Part shown: one piece after another, positions 1 to 12,504 of the stretch
Layout of the letters: each line of letters starts with the position of its first letter
Numbering within the stretch: the first letter of the stretch is position 1
From: an uncultured beta proteobacterium
GTDB taxonomy: Bacteria > Pseudomonadota > Gammaproteobacteria > Burkholderiales > Burkholderiaceae_C
Reading direction: 5' to 3'
Length of the DNA: 18,699 nucleotides
Assembly (NCBI GenBank): GCA_903920405.1
Contig: CAIXMC010000400.1
Span: forward strand, 1 to 18,699
Translations under genes and position numbers: made by a program
The notes under the pieces: generated by a model
Told to the model about the DNA's origin: nothing
Seen by the model: the letters and a program-made list of their open reading frames with translations, nothing else
The model's database searches: none

Positions 1-794
1 GCAGATTGAAATTGCCCTAGAACATTCTGCATTTTTTCCATGGCTTCCAGCATTTGGCCGGTTTCGTCCTTGCTTGTTGTTAATATTTTTTTATCAAACC
101 GACCCTCCGCCACATTGTCTGCAAGTTCCACTGCAAGTTTCATGGGCAGGGTGATACTGCGTATCAGGTAAAACCCAAAACCAAGCGCAAATGCAATCGC
201 AAGCAACAGCACCACCACAACCAGCGTGCGTGTGATTTCAAAACTGGCCAGAGAACGTTGATACTCTGCGTTGGCCACGTCCATCTGTAGCTTTTGCAAA
301 CCTCTGATAACGGGAGACACTTCATCCCAAAGCGTAGCCACATTGGGTTCGTAAAGACTTGCCATGTCAACGCTGTTGGATCGAAGAGCCTCAACCATGG
401 GAAGAACGCCATTCTGTAAAAATGCTTCGCGTTTGACCTGAAAACTTTGCACCAGCTTCTTCTCTTCTTCAGTGAGTTGGTTGGCACGGTAGGCTTCCCA
501 TGTCTTGGCAATTTTTGAAATGTTTTCAGTCACACGCTGGACCGCAGCCGCAGAATTTTCGACGGAAGAATTGGACACAGCGCGCGAAAGCAGCAATTGA
601 TTCTCCTGCATAAGCGATTCCACTTGGGCCAACTGGTTCAGTGGCACCAGTTGGTCAGATTGCATCGTCTTCAACCTTTCGTTGGCCATACCCAGCGAGC
701 GAAGCCCTGTCGCGGCGATGGCAATCAGTACCACGACCAATACCACCAACAAAAGCATCAGACGGATGCCAATTTTCAAATCGTTCAATTTCAT
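1..794 (-). CDS. Methyl-accepting chemotaxis protein, N-terminal part (MCP0, runs off window)
   Basis: This is a membrane chemoreceptor whose reading frame is open to the left edge, so only about 264 N-terminal residues are seen. It starts MKLNDLKIGIRLMLLL, like the other two large receptors here. TM1 is about residues 11-32, followed by a periplasmic helical domain of about 150 residues (four-helix-bundle type). TM2 (VVVVLLLAIAFALGFGFYL) and a HAMP start (IRSITLPMKLAVELADNVAEG) follow. The ATG at 794 has AGGA eight bases upstream. The sensor part resembles MCP2: both have an ESLMQ.NQ segment, a later VKR.AF..G..PMV.ALR segment and W.E..PVI.G..K.Q. MCP0 and MCP2 are therefore probably duplicates. 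The signalling hairpin and any C-terminal pentapeptide lie outside the window. The ligand is unknown. Confidence 0.93.
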   Translation of the reverse strand, partial: MKLNDLKIGIRLMLLLVVLVVVLIAIAATGLRSLGMANERLKTMQSDQLVPLNQLAQVESLMQENQLLLSRAVSNSSVENSAAAVQRVTENISKIAKTWEAYRANQLTEEEKKLVQSFQVKREAFLQNGVLPMVEALRSNSVDMASLYEPNVATLWDEVSPVIRGLQKLQMDVANAEYQRSLASFEITRTLVVVVLLLAIAFALGFGFYLIRSITLPMKLAVELADNVAEGRFDKKILTTSKDETGQMLEAMEKMQNVLGQFQS

Positions 795-868
795 TTCAAC
801 GTTCCTGGGAATGGTAAAACCGACTCAATGAAAGATAAGACAGCAGCCACCCATTTTCTACTTAATAA

Positions 869-894
869 CATATCAAAATAATAGCAAACTATGC
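869..894 (-). repeat. Diverged half-copy of GCTAT-N7-RTAGC interspersed repeat
   Basis: On the minus strand the segment reads GCATAGTTTGCTAT, then seven bases, then ATATG. It aligns without gaps to the core of the repeat copies at 15371-15421 and 17164-17214. It lies in the 162-base gap between the DUF3147 gene and MCP0. The match is degenerate, so this is a probable relic only. Confidence 0.45.
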
Positions 895-956
895 AGTATT
901 GACGAGCCTTGGCGGCGAATTTGAATATCAACAAATGAGAGCCTTTGGCCGCAGCT

Positions 957-1307
957 TTATAGCTGAACTCCAACCTTGCGCAGCAACGGCAGCATGACCC
1001 AGTAACACGCGGTGGTTGCTGCTGCCGAAATACCCAAGCTCAACCAAAAGTTCATATCCAGCTTGAGCAAAACGGGCAGTACAAAAAATAAGACAAGCGA
1101 TGGCAGAACGAGCCAGAACACTTGCATTGAAAGCTCCCCGATGAACGTGGAAGACGACCCCTCGACGTGTAACCAAATGAAGGCGAACAAAGAGGTAAGC
1201 GGAAGAGCGGCCAACAGCGCAGCCATGCCGGAATGGCGCTTTGCAATCTCGGACACAGCCACGATGACAACGGCTGAGAGGACGACCTTGAGTGCATAGA
1301 AAAGCAC
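957..1307 (-). CDS. DUF3147 (GlpM-like) small membrane protein
   Basis: This is a 116-residue, very hydrophobic inner-membrane protein with about four transmembrane segments: residues about 3-20, 28-46, 58-80 and 88-110. The features EIAKRHSGMAALLAALPLTS, FWLVLPSLVLF and ACYWVMLPLL fit the DUF3147/GlpM family as I know it. The function of that family is not established. The start chosen is GTG at 1307, because an in-frame stop lies shortly upstream and no ATG precedes the conserved N-terminus. No clear Shine-Dalgarno is visible. It sits between two chemoreceptor genes on the same strand, 61 bases after MCP1 ends, so it may be co-transcribed, but nothing in the sequence links it functionally to chemotaxis. 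Confidence 0.85.
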   Translation of the reverse strand: MLFYALKVVLSAVVIVAVSEIAKRHSGMAALLAALPLTSLFAFIWLHVEGSSSTFIGELSMQVFWLVLPSLVLFFVLPVLLKLDMNFWLSLGISAAATTACYWVMLPLLRKVGVQL

Positions 1308-1368
1308 GATGAGTGGACTCAGGTGAAATAGCTTTGATGGCTAATGGATAGAGCGGTGGTCCTACAAG

Positions 1369-3912
1369 TTAGTAGGGTATGAAATGACCAGACCCTGAAC
1401 CGCGCACAGAGGTAGAAAGCAGGGGTGTACTGGATCGGAGAGTGGCTCCCGTGCGACTTTTGAGTACTGGCAATGCTTGATGACTCTTCCCAGTGGGTTG
1501 ATCAACACCCGTATTAAAAAATGCAATACTTTGCTGCAGTTGCCCCGCCTGGCTTGAAAGCTCTTCACTGGTCGCTGCCAGTTCTTCAGATGCACTGGCA
1601 TTGATCTGTGTAGCTCGGGTGAGCTGCCCCATCGCGCCACCAATTTGAGTGACAGATTCGCTCTGCTCTGCACTGGCTGCTGCAATTTCTTGCACCAGCT
1701 CACTGGTTTTTTCAATGCTGGGAACGATCTCTTCGAGTAATTTACCGGCACGCTCTGCAGTGGTCACGCTGCTTTGCGCAAGCTCACCAATTTCCTTGGC
1801 GGCCTCCTGGCTACGTTCAGCGAGCTTGCGAACTTCGGCTGCCACCACCGCAAAGCCTTTGCCATGTTCACCTGCCCTGGCCGCTTCAATGGCGGCGTTC
1901 AATGCCAGCAAATTGGTTTGGTAGGCAATGTCATCAACGATACTGATTTTGGATGCTATTTTTTTCATAGCTGTTACCGTATGACTGACGGCGCTTCCAC
2001 CGTCTTTGGCCTCTTTGGTGGTTTTGGTGGCCATGCCATTGGTCACTTTGGCGTTGTCGCTGTTTTTGTTGATGGACACCGACATGACCTCAATTTGCGA
2101 AGTAGATTCTTCAACCGATGCCGCTTGCTCACTGGCCGCCTGACTCAAGGACTGGGCGGTAGCACTCACCTGACTGGCCGCACCGGTGAGGGCATTTGCC
2201 GCACCTCGCACTTCACCAATCACGCGGGTCAGGTTGTCGTTCGATGCATTGACGCTGTCTTTGACCTTGCCAAACAAACCGTGGTAGTCGCGTGTGATGC
2301 GCTGGGTCAAGTCGCCTTCAGCCACAGTGGCGAGCACATTAGCAACATCGTTCAGACTTTGTTCGCAGGTCTGTACAAGTTCATTCATACCTGTACTCAG
2401 GTTGGCCAGGAAGCCCGTTTTGCCCTCGGTTTTGATACGATGTGAGAAGTCACCCAAACCGGCCGCAGTCACAATATGAGCCACTTCGCGCTCGGAAGCC
2501 ATTTCTTCGGTGCGATCCACCCAGTGCGTGACACGCCCAATGTTCTGGCCTGCGTTGTCCAGGATAGGCTTGGCCAGCAAGCGCATCTGACGCCCCTCCA
2601 TCTCAACATCCTCTGCAAGGCCTGATTGCAGCGCATGGTCAAACTTGGCTGCCATGTCGTGATTTTTAAACATGCTGCTGAGTTTGTTGCCGTAATACTT
2701 GTCCGCATCAAAGCCGGGGCCACCCACTAATTTCAGCATTTGTTTGGCAGCCGGCGTGGCGTGGACAAAAATGGTGTTGGCATCCGAAACTGTCACGCAC
2801 TCTGGCAGACTGTCCAGCGACTGACGGATTCGCAAGTTAAAACTCGCAGCTTGTGCCGCATCACGCAAAGTGAGTTGCACTTTGTCCATGGCATCGCTGA
2901 TACGCGCTTTTTGGCCAGGCAGGCGATCCATGGCAACATCGAGTTTGCCTTCGGTATAACCAGACACCACTTCGACAATTTTCATCGTGACGGCAAGGTG
3001 AGACTGCACCATGCTGTTGGTGGACTCGGCCATCACACCGTAAGCCCCGGGCAAGCCTTGGGTAGGCATGCGGTGGTCAATCTGGCCTTTGTCATGCTGG
3101 GCAGCCATATCCTGCTGGGCAGCTTGAAACTGGCATAAAACCGACTGCATTTTGGCAAGTGACTGCATCAGAATACCTGTTTCATCACGACTGTCCACCA
3201 CAATATTGCCATCCAGCTTGCCATCGGCAACGTCATCTGCCACCTGAAGCGCTTTGGAAATGGGTGCAGTGATGGAGCGAGTCATCATCCAGCCAAAAAG
3301 TATTGCAAACAATACATTCAAAACACTGACAACGATGAGCACATTGCGGGTTAACCGGTACTCCACCTCAGACTTTTCAAAATCTGCCTTGTTCTCGTTT
3401 TCATAGTAGGCGAGGTTTTCTTCAATGGCTTCGAGCAATAAAGTCAAGGCAGGAGCTGCCTCTGCGGTCAGCAAGGCAGTTGCCTCCGGGATTTTGTAGT
3501 CCTGCGCCAACTCCAGCACTTTGTTATTAAGTTCAAGCGCCTTCACTTTGGCCTGTGCAATTTTTTCGAGGTTGGCTTTGCCAATGTCACTGACGGAAAG
3601 AGTTTGCAAAACCTCCCACTCTTTGACGTAGTCTTCGCGCGCTTGATTGAATCTTGCCACTTCCCGCTTCCTGGCCGCTACATCCTCGTAAAGGATCGAT
3701 GATCGCACCACCCTCGCAACGACATGCACAGATTCTGCCAACTTGGTGTTGATACGGATTCTGACGAAGTTACTGGTGACCACCTCTTCCAGATTGGATT
3801 GAATGCTGGAGATGTCTATCACGGCCACAATAGCCATGATCACCGAAAAAAACACAATCAGCCCGAAGGTGATAAAAAGGCGTGTACCAATTTTGAGGTT
3901 ACGAAAATTCAT
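1369..3912 (-). CDS. Methyl-accepting chemotaxis protein with HAMP repeats and PAS domain (MCP1)
   Basis: This chemoreceptor has 847 residues. TM1 is about 13-33, then a helical periplasmic sensor (34-188) unlike that of MCP0/MCP2. TM2 is 190-210 and the first HAMP about 211-263. Further HAMP-like segments lie at about 311-350 and 478-560, flanking a PAS-like domain at about 360-470. The coiled-coil signalling domain follows, with its tip around 675-701 ([20 protein letters not shown]). After a flexible tail of about 45 residues it ends in HFIPY, which fits the CheR/CheB tether consensus x-[HFYW]-x-x-[HFYW]. Relative to the Cache receptor in this window, each arm of the hairpin is seven residues shorter. 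The ATG at 3912 has GGAG upstream. The cytoplasmic half is closely similar to MCP2, so this is a tandem paralogue with an exchanged sensor. Confidence 0.97.
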
Positions 3913-3965
3913 ATAAAAACTCCATGGTGGTTGAGACTTGCCAGAAAACGATGGTTTTTTTCGTC

Positions 3966-4131
3966 AGGATATGGTCAACAATAAGTTGTGCATTTGGCCG
4001 TCAAAGTTAAAGATGCCATGCCAAGCGCAAATCGCGCAGTATGGCCGGCCCAGCCACGTCAGCGATTTGTAACGATGCAGTGCGCCCAAATCGGATGAGC
4101 CAAATGAAAAACTTATTGTTGACCATATGCT
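3966..4131. repeat. Long inverted repeat between MCP2 and MCP1 (MITE-like)
   Basis: Arms at 3969-3998 and 4099-4128 are reverse complements over 30 bases with two mismatches; both contain AACTTATTGTTGACCATAT or its complement. Two more paired bases lie just outside. The roughly 100-base interior holds an inner inverted repeat (CAAATCGC 4028-4035, GCGATTTG 4062-4069) and the palindrome GGCCGGCC. It begins within a few bases of the MCP2 stop codon and ends 54 bases before the MCP1 start, filling the intergenic gap. No target duplication is visible and no T-run follows the arm, so it is not a standard terminator. It could be a MITE remnant or a large mRNA stem separating the two genes. Confidence 0.8.
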
Positions 4132-6650
4132 TAATAGGATTTGAAATTCCCGATGCCTATTTTGCGAACAGAAGTAGCCAGCAAGGATGCCACACCACCT
4201 CTGCTACGCTCCCGCAAAAACTGGCGGCTGTCCTTTTGGCTTACCTTTTCACCCGTGTTGAAAAATGCAATACTGTGCTGAAGTTGCCCGGCCTGGCCTG
4301 AGAGTTGTTCGCTGGTGGCTGCCAGTTCTTCTGCTGCGCTGGCGTTTTGCTGGGTGGCTTGGCTTAATTGCCCCATGGCACCACCAATTTGTGTGACAGA
4401 TTCACTTTGCTCTGAACTGGCTGCTGCAATTTCTTGAACCAGTTCACTGGTTTTTTGAATGCTGGGTACGATTTCGTTTAACAATTTACCCGCACGCTCA
4501 GCGGTCGTGACGCTACTGAGCGCCAGTTCTCCAATCTCCCTGGCGGCTTCCTGGCTGCGTTCGGCCAGTTTGCGAACCTCGGCAGCCACTACTGCAAAGC
4601 CCTTGCCGTGCTCACCTGCTCTGGCGGCTTCAATGGCTGCATTGAGGGCTAACAGGTTGGTTTGGTAGGCAATGTCATCGACGATACCAATTTTGGATGC
4701 TATTTGTTTCATAGCTACCACCGTATGACTGACGGCGCTTCCGCCATCTTTGGCTTCATGGGTGGTTTTGGTCGCCATGCCGTCTGTGATTTTGGCGTTA
4801 TCGCTGTTTTGGTTGATGGAGACCGACATCACTTCAATTTGCGAAGTGGTTTCTTCAACCGATGAGGCTTGCTCGCTGGCGGCCTGGCTCAAGGATTGTG
4901 CGGTAATGCTCAACTGGTTGGCTGCGCTGGTAAGCGCGTCTGACGCTCCACGAACTTCACCAATCACACGAGTCAGATTGTCACTGGATGTGTTCACACT
5001 GTCTTTGACGCGACCAAACAAACCGTGGTATTCATGGGTGATTCGCTGAGTCAAATCACCCTGTGCCACACCGAGCATGACACGAGCGACATCTTCAAGA
5101 CCTTGTTCGCTGATGTCCATCAGTTGGTTCATGCCGTTTGAAATTTTGGCAAAAAATCCAGTTTTGTTGTCTGTGCGAAGTCTGCCATGAAAGTCGCCTT
5201 GCGTGGCTGCATGGACCATGGTGTCAAGTTCTTGTTCTGATGCAATTTCGTCAGTGCGGTCAATCCATTGAGTGATTCGCCCCATGGGTGTGCCGTGGCT
5301 GTCACGTACCGGCTTGGCGAGCAGGCGCAGATGGCGACCTTGAACTTCCATATCCACTGTTTCACCTGATCGCACAGCCTCGTCGAAACGTATGACGTGC
5401 TGAGGGTCTTTGAACAGACTGCTCAGTTTGTTGCCGTAAAACTTGTCGGTATCAAAGCCGGAGCCACCCAAAAGTTTCAGAAGTTCTTTGGCCGACGGCG
5501 ATGCATGCACCAGCAAAGCCTGGGCATTGGAAACTGTCACACACACGGTATCAAGTGCAGTGCGAATGCGCTCGTTGAAGGTGGCGGCTTCTTGGGCTGA
5601 CTTCATGGTGACCTGAACTTTGTCCATGGCCTCGGTAATGCGTGCTTTTTGGCCCGGGAGTCGATCCATTTGCAAATCCAAGTGACCCTCGGTATAGGCC
5701 TGCATGACCTCAACGACCTTCATGTTGACCGCAATATGCGACTGCACCAATTGGTTCACCGACTCGGCCATCGATCGATAAGAGCCTTGCAGATGCTCTG
5801 TGGGCATCCGGTAATCGAGCATGCCTTGGTCGTGCTGATGCGCCATTTCATTTTGAGCATCCAAAAACTGCCCCAACACCCCTTGCATGGTGGCCATGGC
5901 ACTGAGCAACTGGCCTGTTTCATTCTGGGGGTAGATGTCTGTAGTGACATCGAACTTGCCGACAGCCACATCTTGCGCAACTGAGACGGCATGGCGCATG
6001 GGTGCAGTGATGCTTCTGATCAAAAAGTAGCCTGACACCATGGTGAACGCAAGTGCTGCGACCATGGTCAGGATAATGCCATTTCGGGTGGTGTTGGCGC
6101 TGGCATGGGACAGGATGTAAGCTGCCTTGGAGTTTTCAAGCTGCATTTTTTTAATGCCTTGAATGACAGGTGCCAGTTCTTCCCAACGGTTAGTGAGGGT
6201 CTCGTCCACCAGCAGGGCGCGCCCCGGACTATTGTCTCTGAGTGCATCCACCATGGGGTCCAAGCCATCTTTAACAAACGCGGCTCGTTTGACTTCCAGG
6301 TCGGCGATCAGCTTTTGTTGTGCTTCAGAATTGGCTGTGGCGTGGAACAACTTGAGCGTGGTGGTGATGGTGGCAATATTGCCGGTTACCCCCTCAACCG
6401 CACGTTTTGAATTGTCGGCTGACGGATTGATGATAGCCCTGAGAATAAGCATCTGGTTGGCCTGCATCAGGCTTTCTATGCTTGACATATATTCCAGTGG
6501 CATCATGCCGTTGGAATACTGGTGTTCCATTTTGGTGTTGGCTTCACTGGCTGCGCGCAGGCCAACCCACCCGGTGATGAGCAACACAAGAGACAACAGA
6601 GCCAAAAGAAAGGACAGACGAGTCCCGATTTTCATATTCTTAAGACTCAT
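4131..6650 (-). CDS. Methyl-accepting chemotaxis protein with HAMP repeats and PAS domain (MCP2)
   Basis: This chemoreceptor has 839 residues. The start chosen is ATG at 6650 ([12 protein letters not shown]), because it aligns with the N-termini of MCP0 and MCP1 and has AAGGA upstream; an upstream in-frame ATG at 6683 would add 11 residues. TM1 is about 11-32 and a four-helix-bundle-type periplasmic domain spans 33-188. TM2 is 190-211 and HAMP 212-262. HAMP-like and PAS-like segments follow as in MCP1, then the signalling hairpin with the tip [17 protein letters not shown]. The C-terminus is NFKSY after a variable linker, matching the CheR/CheB tether consensus. The last 16 residues parallel MCP1 (pattern L.TSVR..G.G.F..Y). 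The PAS region reads VCVTVSNA where MCP1 has ECVTVSDA. The ligand is unknown. Confidence 0.96.
4699..4715 (-). repeat. GCTAT-N7-ATAGC motif inside MCP2 (similar at 1955-1971 in MCP1)
   Basis: A 17-base inverted repeat with the same half-sites and spacing as the interspersed repeat core occurs at the same place in both receptor genes, encoding A-M-K-x-I-A of the hairpin. Because this peptide is conserved for structural reasons, the DNA match may be coincidental. The parallel copy in MCP1 is at 1955-1971. Confidence 0.3.
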
Positions 6651-6916: not shown

Positions 6917-7327
6917 TTAACCGCCAAGTTCGCCGAGCAAGCTCAAACACTTGTTGATGCGCTCTTTTTGAATGCCACCTGCCAGTTTCAAGGCTTCGTC
7001 TTCCTTGCCAGCCAAAATCAGCGGAACCAATTCGGTTTCACGGGTCTTTTTGAATGCGCCCCAGGTTTCAACCAACGCCTTGAACTGAGCCTCTTTGCCT
7101 TCGGGCGCTTTGAGCTGGTTTAACAATGCACTCGCAGCATTAGCCGTATCTTGCACCAGTTTTTGCTGCTCTGCACCGCGCTTTGTTTTATCGGTGGCAA
7201 GCGTCACCAGAGTTTCTCTGGCGACCATCATTTTGGATCGAAGGTCTTTGAAACCATCAGCATGGGCCCAAGGTGCTGCCAGCAGGGTGGCAAAAGTAAA
7301 ACACAAGACGGCAACAATTTTTTTCAT
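6917..7327 (-). CDS. Small secreted helical protein of the chemosensory cluster
   Basis: The protein has 136 residues and no family I can name. Residues 1-23 form a clear Sec signal peptide (MKKIVAVLCFTFATLLAAP, cleavage probably after AHA), giving a mature periplasmic protein of about 113 residues. The mature part is almost entirely amphipathic helix with few prolines, compatible with a four-helix bundle. The segment around W89 (W.AF...RE.ELVPLILAGKEDEA) resembles helix 3-4 of four-helix-bundle receptor sensor domains. It lacks a CXXCH motif, so it is not a c'-type cytochrome. It starts 51 bases after cheA with AAGGG upstream, so it is probably co-transcribed. A periplasmic partner or ligand-binding protein for a receptor is possible but is inference only. 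Confidence 0.85.
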   Translation of the reverse strand: MKKIVAVLCFTFATLLAAPWAHADGFKDLRSKMMVARETLVTLATDKTKRGAEQQKLVQDTANAASALLNQLKAPEGKEAQFKALVETWGAFKKTRETELVPLILAGKEDEALKLAGGIQKERINKCLSLLGELGG

Positions 7328-7378: not shown

Positions 7379-9565
7379 TCACACGCTGAGGCTAACGCTG
7401 GCAACTTCAGCAGTCACCAGTTCACCCAGAGACACCACATCCAGAATCAACGCCACTTCACCACTGCCCAAAATGCTGGAGCCTGAAATGCCACGCAAGG
7501 TTTTGAACAAGCGCCCCAAAGGTTTGATGACGGTTTGCTGCTGGCCGAGCAGAACTTCAACTTCAATACCGTATTTTCCACGTGGCGAACTTACCACCAC
7601 CACGCTGGTGCGATCCGGCAGGGTGGACTCCACACTGTAGAGGGTACGCAAGCGAACCACCGGCAACACAGCGCCACGCAACTCCACGCAATGGCGGCCT
7701 GCGGCATCCACACGCACATTCTGCCCCCCCGCTTCAATCACTTCCACCACCGAACCCAATGGCAACACAAACTTGGCCTTGCCCACACCCACCAAAAAGC
7801 CGTCAATGATGGCCAGGGTCAGTGGCAAGCGAATATCCACCTGTAACCCATGCCCTGGACTGCTACGGAGCTTGATGGAACCCCGCAGTGCTTCAATGTT
7901 GCGACGCACCACGTCCATGCCCACCCCACGACCTGACAGGTTGGTGACCTGATCTGCTGTTGAAAAACCGGCCTCAAAAATCAACATGTTGATGGCATCG
8001 TCACTAGGCACCATGCCGGGTTCAACCAAGCCACGATTCCAGGCACGTTGCAGCACACGTTCACGGTTAATGCCACGACCGTCGTCTTCAATGCGAATCA
8101 AAATGGCCCCGGTTTCATGACGTGCGCTCAACACCAGACGACCCATAGATGGTTTGCCCGCTGCCACACGCTCTTGCGGTGGCTCAAGCCCATGATCGAG
8201 CGAGTTGCGTACCAGGTGCATCAGGGGGTCGGCAATTTTTTCGACCATGGATTTGTCAAGCTCGGCCTCACCACCCACAATTTCAAAGTTCACTTCTTTG
8301 CCAAGGCTCGATGCGGTGTCTCGAACCACGCGCCTGAATCGGCTAAAGGTTTCACCCACAGGCACCATGCGCAAACCCAGAGTACCGTTGCGAATTTCCT
8401 CAATCAAACTGTTCATGTGCAAATTGGCTTCAATCAGGGCCATGTTGCGAGTTTCACGTGCCAGCAAATTGGCACCTGCTCCTGCAATAACCAACTCGCC
8501 CAGCAAGTTGATGACGGCATCAAGACGATCGGCCTGAACACGGATATAACGGTTTTCTTCGCCAACAGTGGTTTCGCGCGCTTTTTGCTGCTTGTTGAGA
8601 GCTGCCTCAACCACTTCGGGGGCGACACCGGCGGAGGCCTCTAAAAGATTGCCAATTTTGGGCTTTTCACCCGACGCAGCGGGCATTGTCAGCTCTTGAT
8701 GTGAGAGCGCTTCGGTCAGTTTGTTTTGACTGACAGCGCCGACCGACACCAACATATCGCCTAAACGAGGGGTGTCTGGCATATTTTCAATGGCACGAAC
8801 AAGCTTTTGCTCGACACTCTCTGGCGCTTTGATGTCAAGCTCACAGTCATCGGCCACAAAGCTGAAAGCACCTTCAATCTCTTCACGCGAGGCCTTGGAT
8901 TCAAGCGCCATCACAAAGCTCAAGTAACAGGTTTCGGGGTTAAGGTTTACCAGTGCAGGCACAGCATCCATGCCACACACCATGGACTTGACCCTGCCCA
9001 AAACTTTCAAGTATTTGGCAATGGACAAAGGGTCCATGCCATTGCGAAAAGTATCTGCACCAAAACGGGCAGAAATGTTCCATACCGTCATGATCGGCGT
9101 ATGGCTCGATGCCAAGGCATCAGCGGTGACAGCGTCGGCAGCAGCAGAGGCCACGCTTTCGATGTAAGCGCACAACTGAATAACCAAATCTGCCCGCAGG
9201 TCTTTTTGGTCTGCGGTGTCCGCAGCCTCATCTGATGCCGTTTCGACCAAAAATTTAATTTGATCATTGCATTGCAGCAGCAAGGTGCTTAACTCAGGCG
9301 AAAGATGAATGTCACCTTCTCGCAATTTATCAAGCAGGGTTTCAACATGGTGTGCAAAGTCCACCACTTTGTTCAAACCAAAAATACCCGCCGAGCCTTT
9401 GACCGTATGGGCGCAGCGAAACAAATTGTCAAGTAACTCACGGTTGTCAGGCTGTTCTTCCAGTTCAAGCAACAAAGATTCAATGGCCTGGGTTTGCTCG
9501 CTGGCCTCGCTGATGAACGCGGGCATGGCCGCAGCAATAAAGTCCTGGTCTGCATCATGACTCAT
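7379..9565 (-). CDS. cheA: Chemotaxis histidine kinase CheA with MshEN-like insert
   Basis: CheA autophosphorylates in response to receptors and passes phosphate to CheY. It has 728 residues. The P1 HPt domain (about 8-115) carries phospho-acceptor His53 in AHTVKGSAG. Residues about 157-246 form a globular domain containing FGADTFRNGMDPLS and CYLSF; it stands where P2 normally lies but does not look like the classical CheY-binding P2. Residues 267-290 match the MshEN c-di-GMP consensus, with a weaker second copy at 303-326. P3 dimerisation is about 337-400. The P4 ATPase has the N box (HLVRNSLDHG, 450-459), G1 (DDGRGI, 494-499) and G2 (GRGVGMD, 545-551). The CheW-like P5 is 590-728. The kinase residues look intact. 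It follows the STAS gene by 21 bases. Confidence 0.97.
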   Translation of the reverse strand: MSHDADQDFIAAAMPAFISEASEQTQAIESLLLELEEQPDNRELLDNLFRCAHTVKGSAGIFGLNKVVDFAHHVETLLDKLREGDIHLSPELSTLLLQCNDQIKFLVETASDEAADTADQKDLRADLVIQLCAYIESVASAAADAVTADALASSHTPIMTVWNISARFGADTFRNGMDPLSIAKYLKVLGRVKSMVCGMDAVPALVNLNPETCYLSFVMALESKASREEIEGAFSFVADDCELDIKAPESVEQKLVRAIENMPDTPRLGDMLVSVGAVSQNKLTEALSHQELTMPAASGEKPKIGNLLEASAGVAPEVVEAALNKQQKARETTVGEENRYIRVQADRLDAVINLLGELVIAGAGANLLARETRNMALIEANLHMNSLIEEIRNGTLGLRMVPVGETFSRFRRVVRDTASSLGKEVNFEIVGGEAELDKSMVEKIADPLMHLVRNSLDHGLEPPQERVAAGKPSMGRLVLSARHETGAILIRIEDDGRGINRERVLQRAWNRGLVEPGMVPSDDAINMLIFEAGFSTADQVTNLSGRGVGMDVVRRNIEALRGSIKLRSSPGHGLQVDIRLPLTLAIIDGFLVGVGKAKFVLPLGSVVEVIEAGGQNVRVDAAGRHCVELRGAVLPVVRLRTLYSVESTLPDRTSVVVVSSPRGKYGIEVEVLLGQQQTVIKPLGRLFKTLRGISGSSILGSGEVALILDVVSLGELVTAEVASVSLSV

Positions 9566-9586: not shown

Positions 9587-9883
9587 TCAAGATGAGTGTG
9601 AGGAGTGTGACGAGGGCATGAGCCACTGCGTCAAGCCCATGGCATCACAGGCGTATGAAAAAACAGCGCTGGGTTGAAGAATTTTCCAGGGATGATCCAT
9701 ATTGACCAGGGCAGCCAACAGTTGCAATCCAGCGCCATCAATTTCAGCGACATTTGCCGCAGACACCACAAGCACGTCTGCATTTTTGACGCTTTGCTCG
9801 CTCACCCAGGCCAGCAGTTTGTCACGCGTTTCAACGGCGCTGTAAATGGTCATCTCTTCGGGAAGCTCGAAGGGTTTGCTCAT
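9587..9883 (-). CDS. STAS-domain protein of the chemotaxis operon
   Basis: This single STAS domain has 98 residues and a typical strand-helix layout; the signature loop reads AEIDGAGLQLLAAL. In SpoIIAA-type anti-sigma antagonists this loop is DSSGL and a serine is phosphorylated. Here Asp49 is followed by Gly50 and Ala51, so the usual phosphorylatable serine is absent. Such STAS proteins are common beside cheA in proteobacterial chemosensory operons and their role is poorly defined; a scaffold or interaction role fits better than a phospho-switch. AGGA lies upstream of the ATG at 9883. It is 21 bases before cheA and 76 bases after cheY. The C-terminus is a serine/histidine repeat (SSHSSHSS) of no known significance. 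Confidence 0.9.
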   Translation of the reverse strand: MSKPFELPEEMTIYSAVETRDKLLAWVSEQSVKNADVLVVSAANVAEIDGAGLQLLAALVNMDHPWKILQPSAVFSYACDAMGLTQWLMPSSHSSHSS

Positions 9884-9959: not shown

Positions 9960-10328
9960 TCAGGGTAGGCACAGTTTGGAAACCGCATTCAACAACGATG
10001 CCGGTGAAAACGGCTTGACCATCCAGGCCTTGGCACCGGCAGCCTTGCCTTCTGCTTTCTTGGATTCCTGAGTTTCAGTGGTGAGCATTAACACGGGCAA
10101 AAATTTATAGTTGGGCAACGCTCTGGCTGCTCTCACAAATTCAATACCATTCATGCGAGGCATGTTGACATCGCAAACTGCCATGTGGATTTTGCGGCCA
10201 TCAAGGAAAGCCAGGGCAGCTTGACCGTCACCTGCTTGCAACACCTCATAACCCGCCCCCTTCAGGGCCATGGAGACCACCTGGCGCAAGCTGGCTGAGT
10301 CGTCAATCACCATAATTGTTTGTGCCAT
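9960..10328 (-). CDS. cheY: CheY-like single-domain response regulator
   Basis: This is a 122-residue stand-alone receiver domain. The acidic pocket is Asp9/Asp10 (VIDDSAS), the phospho-acceptor is Asp53 (VCDVNMP), the switch Thr is Thr83 (LTTE) and the conserved Lys is Lys105 (MVKPFSP). All catalytic residues are present and no output domain follows, so it should act through protein binding as CheY does. It is encoded 14 bases after the CheZ-like gene and directly before STAS and cheA, which makes it the obvious phosphorylation target of this CheA. Whether its output is the flagellar motor, pili or another process cannot be read from the sequence. Confidence 0.95.
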   Translation of the reverse strand: MAQTIMVIDDSASLRQVVSMALKGAGYEVLQAGDGQAALAFLDGRKIHMAVCDVNMPRMNGIEFVRAARALPNYKFLPVLMLTTETQESKKAEGKAAGAKAWMVKPFSPASLLNAVSKLCLP

Positions 10329-10342
10329 ATCTTCTTGTTACC

Positions 10343-10981
10343 TCAAAAAAAAGTAGTTCCATCATCCACCACAGCACCTTCTGTGTCGTCATGCTGTTGA
10401 TGTTGCTCCGACATCACATAGGTGGCCGCCAGGCGTTCAAGCCATTTTGCAGCGTTCACCGAAGTATCAGACTGATGAATGGCCTGCTGCAAACGATTCA
10501 TGTCCTGATGCAACAAAGTGAGCATCTGACTGATGCGATCCTGGTACTGAAAACCTTCGTACATGCGATCCACTTGCAAACTGACAATCTGGGTTTCGCG
10601 AGCAAAAGGTTTGGCGATATTCTCCAGCGCCTCTACACAGGAGGTGATCATGGCGATCACCCGATGGATCGCTTCAACAGCCTCTGGTGTACAACCGCTT
10701 AACACAGGTAGCAAAACATCACCACACGCTTGAGCGAGTTGGGTCATGCCACCCTCACTTTGCGCCAAGGCCGCCGTAATTTCCTTGGACTGACGAACAG
10801 CCAAATCAAGATGTGGACCCAGCTCATCAAAAGCATCCAGCATTTGTTGAACGGCTTCCTCGGAATGTTGGCATGAAGAAACCAGTTGACGCGCCCACAC
10901 AGGCAATATTTGCTCACTCAAATCAACCAAAGCCAGCGCATTTTGCAAATCTGGCTGCGCTTGGGTAACCGACCTTGTCAT
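10343..10981 (-). CDS. CheZ-like putative CheY phosphatase (DxxxQ motif)
   Basis: This predicted all-helical protein has 212 residues. The ATG at 10981 overlaps the stop of the upstream receptor gene (ATGA), which fixes the start; a longer in-frame extension would lie inside that gene. Overall sequence does not strongly resemble enterobacterial CheZ, but a long helix carries [11 protein letters not shown], with Asp148 and Gln152 in the DxxxQ arrangement of the CheZ active site (D143/Q147 in E. coli, from memory). Length and position also match CheZ (214 residues). The C-terminus is acidic and ends aromatic ([15 protein letters not shown]), in the place where CheZ has its CheY-binding tail. 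The next gene is cheY. A phosphatase for that CheY is the best inference, but catalysis is unproven. Confidence 0.75.
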
Positions 10982-12504
10982 GCGTCCAGCCATTGAGAAT
11001 TGAAGTAGCAGCCGCATCCCAACAAATGATTCTCGTCCAGTGGTACAACATACGATGTCTTGGACTGCACCATAAGGGAGACTGGATTGAGAATGCTGTA
11101 GGTCACCCAGCCACCTTGTTCTGTATCGCACAAGCCCCAGGCATCAGCAATCAATTTTTCAGCATCTACGCCCGGCATGTCACGCAAGTCAGAGCCATCT
11201 TTTTCGGGCATGGCACCGTGAACTGAATAAAAACCGTCTCGGTCAAAAATAAAGATGTACATATCACGGTCAATGAACGCCTTGCGGGGATCATGAAAAT
11301 CGCGCAGAGCTTGCTCATCATCGGTAGTGCGAATATGCACCAAGGCATCAAACACCAGTTGACGGGCTTGATCGGCAGTACCTTGGCGAAGTTGAATGTC
11401 TCCTACCGAGATTTCCAAAACAGAGGCTTGGTCGATCAGGCGGTCAGAGTTGGTGCTTGCCCGATGGACCAAGGCAGCATTTTCCTGTGTCAAAACATCT
11501 AGGTCGCCCACAGCGTGAACCACTTCTTCAAGGGCTGCGCTTTGAGTGGCACTGCCTTCGGCCATGACGTTCACATTCATGGCAATTTCCGCAATGCCAG
11601 AAATAAGACTGACCATGTTGTCGTTGATGTGCTTGATGCTTTGGACAGTTTCACCCACTCTTGCGGAAGACTCTGCAATCAGCCCGCGAATTTCAGCAGC
11701 AGCCGTCTGGCTGCGTTTGGCCAGGTTTCGCACTTCAGAGGCCACTACCGCAAAACCCCTGCCTTGTTCACCGGCACGAGCAGCTTCAACAGCAGCATTG
11801 AGAGCGAGCAGATTCGTCTGAAAAGCAATGCCGTCAATCACGCCAATGATTTCAGACATGCGTTTCGATGTCACCTCCAAAGGTCCCATGCTCCGCACAG
11901 CATCGTTCATCATGGTACCGGCCGAGTCGGCCTCATGGTGCAAGCTCGATGTCATCATGCTGACCTCGTGCGCCGCAGCCGCATTGCGTGCCACGGTTTC
12001 ACTGACGCGCTTGACATGAAGGGAAGTTTGTTGCAGATGCTGGCCTTGTGCCTCTGCCCGCTCGGCAAGTGAACGGGTGTCATCGACCAGCTTTTTGCCG
12101 GTGTCGCCCAGCAAGACAGCAGCCGTGCGAATGTTGGCCACCATGCTGGACATGTTGGCAATCATGATTTCAAGGTGTCGCCCAAAATTGCCCAAGGTGC
12201 TCACACCCCCATCGGATGTATTGGTGAGGTTGCCTTGCGATACTAAACGCATCGCGTTTTCGGTTCGATCACGTTCTGTCTGGGTAATCTGAAAAAACGC
12301 CGCCTGAAAATAGACCCAAAGTGCTACACCCAACACGGCCACCATCGTGACCCGCCAGCCGCTGCTTGAATCTGGACTGCATTCAACGAAGTGCATCAAG
12401 ACAATGATGCCCAATGCGATCAGCAATGGAGAAGGAAGCGTCCAAAAACGTGTACGCCCTGACAAGGGACGCAAAATTGCGGTTGCAGGCGTAAACATGG
12501 TCAT
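10978..12504 (-). CDS. Chemoreceptor with C-terminal cytosolic Cache domain (MCP3)
   Basis: This 508-residue receptor has unusual architecture. TM1 (about 23-40) and TM2 (about 52-70) are separated by only about 11 residues, so there is no periplasmic sensor. A short HAMP-like linker (about 72-125) leads to a signalling hairpin with the tip [20 protein letters not shown] (about 235-254). C-terminal to it, residues about 375-500 form a Cache-type sensor, seen from [33 protein letters not shown] and LLGCGCY. By topology this Cache domain is in the cytoplasm, whereas Cache sensors are usually periplasmic. The hairpin arms are seven residues longer than in MCP1/MCP2. No tether pentapeptide is present (ends QWLDA). 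ATG at 12504 is preferred over 12498 because AAGG is better spaced. Confidence 0.94.

Follow-up and report, generated by a model that had tools for sequence, protein, structure and literature searches.

The question raised by the locus described here is whether a chemosensory kinase may itself carry a receptor domain for the second messenger cyclic di-GMP (c-di-GMP). The locus lies in an 18,699-nucleotide stretch of DNA of an uncultured beta proteobacterium (assembly GCA_903920405.1, contig CAIXMC010000400.1; the whole stretch is referred to below as the window). It contains a cheA gene in whose product a reading of the sequence alone had noticed a c-di-GMP-type MshEN motif followed by a degenerate second copy. 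Our analysis indicates that this CheA most likely contains a real MshEN_N-type domain, a variant with unequal half-sites, which probably serves as a c-di-GMP input to the kinase.

Assignment of the protein to CheA was based on Pfam matches to Hpt, H-kinase_dim, HATPase_c and CheW domains (Table 1). Positions 8588–8767 of the window correspond exactly to CheA residues 267–326, i.e. to both motifs and the spacer separating them. No Pfam match above the cut-off was obtained for residues 104–338, into which two weak ones extend (to residues 121 and 154). According to the predicted model, the MshEN segment lies between P2 and P3. Its original placement, between P1 and the dimerization domain, is correct in that the segment is upstream of P3, with the refinement that, in this model, a P2-type domain intervenes after P1.

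The MshEN consensus, RLGxx(LVI)(LVI)xxG(LVI)(LVI)xxxxLxxxLxxQ, spans 24 residues with 11 fixed positions. Motif I of CheA (residues 267–290) agrees with it at 10 of these, A277 being the sole deviation, exactly as the sequence-only reading had stated. This score was reached in none of 20,000 shuffles of CheA (the best value, 9, was obtained in four of them). Motif II (residues 303–326), whose start lies 36 residues from that of motif I, agrees at 5 of the 11 positions: it retains G3, L21 and Q24, and has conservative K, I and V residues at positions 1, 2 and 17. Its score was equaled, within 30 offsets, by 6,068 of the 20,000 shuffles, and a value of at least 5 occurs in 12 of the 705 scoring windows of CheA. 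Being at chance level alone, motif II was rejected as an independent statistical finding and accepted only via alignment with relatives. The claimed second copy, at the stated 36-residue spacing, is supported by homology, since a CheA paralog encoded in the same genome contains the tandem and passes the NCBIfam cut-off (see below).

The NCBIfam model NF053729 (c-di-GMP_motif, MshE-related; 53 positions long, curated cut-off 38 bits) matched residues 267–292 when whole CheA was searched (25.8 bits, E 6.9e-6) and gave 33.8 bits with the segment alone, both values being under the cut-off. A search of PDB sequences with the segment identified PilF (E 2.4e-4) and Vibrio cholerae MshE (E 3.5e-4), and a profile built from the segment retrieved PilF (E 5.4e-20), MshE and PilB. 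The AlphaFold model of the segment consists of four helices, but the fold comparison was weak: Foldseek, run with a 93-residue model, returned nothing significant, with neither MshE nor PilF among the best 50 of 72 matches, and the VIA-align comparison covered Foldseek's own 294 candidates only. The two computational checks proposed with the original observation gave a profile match below its cut-off, and four predicted helices with a weak fold comparison. That the residues of the segment form an MshEN_N-type domain is well supported by sequence and weakly by fold comparison, and the MshEN identity first suggested for it is upheld to the same extent. The possibility that a helical linker resembles MshEN by chance, with which the score of motif II alone would agree, was rejected on the strength of the shuffles, the match to NF053729 and the segment profile; with the same-genome paralog above the cut-off as well, such an explanation is scarcely credible.

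This paralog, the second CheA of the genome (assembly of 2.68 Mb in 458 contigs, approximately 90% complete), is 48% identical to that of the window and contains the tandem RLGDMLVRCGTLTPQELDIALNTQ, a 6-residue spacer and PIGAILVEQGSVQPEVIEAALTKQ. It scores 46.3 bits against NF053729. In a third CheA of this genome (C147) no such MshEN segment was seen. The norm for MshEN_N is a five-residue spacer and a 53-residue domain, from which the window CheA departs with its 12-residue spacer; since the paralog with a 6-residue spacer passes the cut-off, we read the longer spacer as a variant trait. From these sequences we infer that the MshEN domain probably existed before the two MshEN-bearing types of CheA diverged, and that the window type gained its longer spacer, together with the K and AG changes, afterwards.

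Elsewhere in the same genome (L042; contig C32, positions 1–6000), frames of 388 and 649 amino acids (aa) carry similar tandem MshEN motifs and resemble a duplicated MshEN unit. As judged by eye, the 649-aa frame includes an ATPase region containing a Walker A motif, and the 388-aa frame stops soon past the MshEN region.

Conservation was examined in two unanchored alignments, one of orthologs (the best 120 of 296 proteins matched by residues 255–335; 92 distinct segments) and one of paralog relatives (the best 120 of 246 matches; 90 distinct segments of 121, including the paralog itself). The six contact positions of motif I are invariant in all 92 distinct orthologs, as are G3, V17, L21 and Q24 of motif II, and K1 is present in 91. 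The spacer comprises 12 residues in each of the 92, and 5 to 12 residue types occur at its individual positions. Among the paralog relatives, P occupies position 1 of motif II in 89 of the 90 distinct segments, and Q24 of both motifs is found in all 90. These unanchored alignments are a fairer test of conservation than an entropy comparison of contact and other positions in 99 distinct motif pairs, which favored the contacts (p 0.0002). Little weight was given to the latter, because motif I had been picked by a score rewarding contacts and motif II had been anchored on its last six positions. In addition, motif I was present in 14 of 15 same-genus CheA loci (own locus included) that had been chosen by full-length CheA similarity, independently of the motif; the remaining locus, L014, was unreadable due to an interrupted frame.

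At L014 and L057, the orthologous CheA frames (441 aa) begin downstream of motif I, and at L014 an in-frame stop precedes the frame. Such frames reflect either a faulty assembly or a genuine truncation.

A scan of named genomes revealed 262 relatives of the segment, of which 80 loci were kept, mostly from Rhodoferax and other beta proteobacterial metagenome-assembled genomes. Relatives were also identified in Simplicispira, Rugamonas, Roseateles, Azoarcus, Pseudomonas, Colwellia, Chromatiales and a Nitrospirae bin, and an uncultured beta proteobacterium of the Loclat set (L044) has a 93-residue segment 100% identical to that of the window. In an order-level sample of 300 genomes, 60 besides the own genome gave a match of at least 57 bits (counted by hand), and the CheA kinase signature was present in all 30 loci fetched from this sample. 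Many weaker matches fell within frames of approximately 570–600 aa, the size of pilus ATPases (an identity judged by size alone). At the phylum level, 20 of 398 genomes had a match at E 1e-9; the 19 loci inspected besides the own one comprised 12 CheA (by signature), five that, like pilus ATPases, have a Walker A motif, and two with neither. The motif pair was readable in 102 of 110 loci, with spacers of 5–20 residues, and the other eight lacked an in-frame CheA signature (three loci), motif I (two) or an anchored motif II (three). No motif II was found by the anchor in L098, L117 and L133, yet one is visible there by eye. Two loci from genomes of a different class within this phylum (L170 and L171) encode CheA with a more diverged tandem, in which P or A is present at both Arg positions.

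The MshEN_N domain of V. cholerae MshE (PDB 5htl) resembles the CheA segment in its tandem 24-residue motifs and its four helices (predicted in CheA). Nine of the 12 contact residues are identical and three are conservative. The differences concern motif II (R38K, L39I and L54V, and a shifted turn glycine), the spacer (12 residues versus 5 in MshE, where the motif starts are 29 = 24 + 5 residues apart) and MshEN_C, which CheA, unlike MshE, does not contain. As described by Wang et al. 2016 (PMC5013675), R9 and R38 of MshE stack on the guanines, the other faces of which are covered by L10/L54/L58 and L25/L29/L39; the backbones of G11/G40 contact the Hoogsteen edges, and Q32/Q61 contact ribose and phosphate (the roles of R38 and G40 are carried over from the statement that guanine 2 binding is similar). 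By analogy with this structure, guanine 1 would be held in CheA by R267, G269/D270, L283, L287 and I304, and guanine 2 by K303, G305/N306, L268, V319 and L323, with Q290 and Q326 contacting ribose and phosphate.

According to the same paper, substitution of Arg9, Asp12 or Gln32 in MshE decreased binding no more than fivefold, binding of the G11L and G40I variants was poor, if any, and the four-helix part, when isolated, equals or exceeds the whole in binding. Escherichia coli NfrB provides a further precedent, since there too MshEN is fused to a non-pilus enzyme, although this enzyme is a glycosyltransferase and its MshEN is C-terminal. According to PMC8669469 and PMC8669472, this domain binds c-di-GMP with a Kd of 1 µM and is required for NfrB output; in a phage infection read-out, single or double Leu changes had none to moderate effect, and G491L the strongest. 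Given the MshE mutant data, the NfrB precedent and the nine identical contacts, binding of c-di-GMP by the CheA segment is likely, perhaps with lower strength at guanine 2.

One result weighs against this conclusion: in MshE, the change of any conserved hydrophobic contact caused a more than tenfold loss of binding (PMC5013675). It makes c-di-GMP binding less certain, and lends weight to the view that CheA has an MshEN_N fold without ligand, as XpsE does, which functions between P2 and P3 of the kinase as a spacer or a docking module. The altered motif II with two hydrophobic contacts changed, the longer spacer and the absence of MshEN_C are all consistent with such a module. Moreover, residues in or just behind motif II that are not contacts (A321, A322 and Q327 in 92 of 92 orthologs, K325 in 90) are invariant or nearly so, which points to a role beyond ligand contact. 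However, a pure scaffold would have no need of the motif I contacts and of G3, L21 and Q24 of motif II, which do not vary in orthologs and hardly vary in paralogs, and CheA has none of the eight changes seen in XpsE. We therefore consider a ligand-free domain unlikely, if deserving of serious attention. Binding of c-di-GMP with control of the kinase is the likeliest reading, and rests on this conservation: residues ~266–335 would form an MshEN_N four-helix domain that accommodates one c-di-GMP between its motifs and modulates CheA, to which we assign a probability of roughly 60%.

Position 1 of motif II, occupied across the 102 CheA loci by K (44), P (37) or R (5), and thus by K or P in 81, would also fit a ligand for which only the guanine-1 half-site is canonical, i.e. 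another cyclic dinucleotide or a linear guanine nucleotide. The V. cholerae domain does bind cyclic GMP-AMP, albeit weakly, but none of the mononucleotides tested (Wang et al. 2016). Half-site 2 of CheA retains its glycine, Leu21 and Gln contacts, and the genome has 32 GGDEF and 13 EAL matches, indicating that enzymes to make and break c-di-GMP are present. A different nucleotide is thus improbable. The unequal half-sites would also be explained if one symmetric c-di-GMP were held by motifs I of both CheA protomers, motif II being structural and the switch sitting at the dimer's two-fold axis; the length and variability of the spacer would permit a ligand bound across the dimer, but we see only a slim chance of this arrangement.

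If c-di-GMP is bound between the two motifs of one protomer, its effect may be transmitted through the joint of P2 and P3. Since the last helix of the segment continues toward the P3 dimerization helices in the predicted model, the ligand could stiffen or reposition this joint and so alter the access of P1 to P4. High c-di-GMP would then most likely lower CheY phosphorylation, the sign of the effect being a guess.

The fusion of MshEN with CheA as such is already in print: one sentence in the main text of Wang et al. 2016 (PMC5013675) names CheA among MshEN-carrying proteins, without architecture or test. The window CheA is a variant of such fusions in which the spacer is longer and the second half-site altered. 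The c-di-GMP-binding domains of PilF (PDB 6f8l, 8pdk), the best match of the segment profile, share the tandem motifs, but belong to a pilus ATPase with several MshEN copies. Compared with the canonical five-domain CheA (P1–P5), with which it shares Hpt, H-kinase_dim, HATPase_c, CheW and, in the model, a P2-type fold, the window CheA carries one additional domain, located between P2 and P3. Berry et al. 2023, who surveyed the architectures of CheA, treat P2, receiver and CheC/CheX as auxiliary domains and describe CheA as having no sensor domain of its own; an MshEN-type domain is not named in their main text, by the terms searched. A c-di-GMP test on an MshEN-CheA was not found in the open-access literature searched (most subscription papers lay outside its scope), and this kind of kinase is unstudied as far as these searches show.

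Other meeting points of c-di-GMP and chemosensory pathways place the messenger outside the kinase chain, at the receptor (the PilZ chemoreceptor Cbp1) or at the chemotaxis methyltransferase (through a PilZ adaptor). Our data suggest, but do not prove, that c-di-GMP acts directly on the kinase. If this is true, many proteobacteria, above all betaproteobacteria, pass this biofilm messenger directly to their chemosensory kinase, the c-di-GMP route is not limited to PilZ adaptors or receptors, and the swim-or-settle decision is coupled at the kinase step. No PilZ match was obtained in the own assembly; its absence was dropped as an argument for MshEN as the main receptor, because 35 of the 40 same-genus genomes that were searched have a PilZ match and the assembly is incomplete.

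Table 1. Features of the window CheA and of two adjoining genes
Feature	Position	Strand	Details
cheA	7379–9565	minus	728 aa; P1-P2-MshEN_N-P3-P4-P5 (MshEN_N and P2 predicted)
P1, Hpt domain	9257–9520	minus	residues 16–103; Pfam PF01627, E 7e-16
P2-type domain	8822–9088	minus	residues ~160–248; beta-alpha-beta-beta-alpha-beta in the predicted model
MshEN motif I	8696–8767	minus	residues 267–290; RLGDMLVSVGAVSQNKLTEALSHQ
Spacer	8660–8695	minus	residues 291–302; 12 residues, fixed length, variable sequence
MshEN motif II, altered	8588–8659	minus	residues 303–326; KIGNLLEASAGVAPEVVEAALNKQ
P3, H-kinase_dim	8390–8551	minus	residues 339–392; Pfam PF02895, E 5.2e-7
P4, HATPase_c	7817–8230	minus	residues 446–583; Pfam PF02518, E 2.4e-16
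P5, CheW-like	7427–7801	minus	residues 589–713; Pfam PF01584, E 4.5e-21
STAS-domain protein adjoining cheA	9587–9883	minus	PF13466, E 4.4e-6, 27.2 bits, just under the cut-off of 29.2
CheY-like single receiver	9960–10328	minus	PF00072, E 2.1e-23

Near the cheA gene of the window are genes for the STAS protein and CheY listed in Table 1, a Cache-type receptor, a further receiver, an Hpt protein and HAMP-rich receptors. The paralogous cheA is likewise preceded by STAS and CheY frames, with a HAMP-array receptor nearby. Since STAS and CheY accompany both copies, the genome has two instances of the gene order CheY, STAS, CheA, both close to receptors.

Directly downstream of cheA (6917–7327, minus strand) lies a frame of 136 aa with a signal peptide recognized by eye and without a Pfam match. 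Another protein without a Pfam match, of 220–262 aa, is encoded between CheY and the Cache receptor (10343–11005, minus strand). In another genome of the genus, a 226-aa frame (L156:10304–10984) is found at the equivalent place, the two being matched by position alone.
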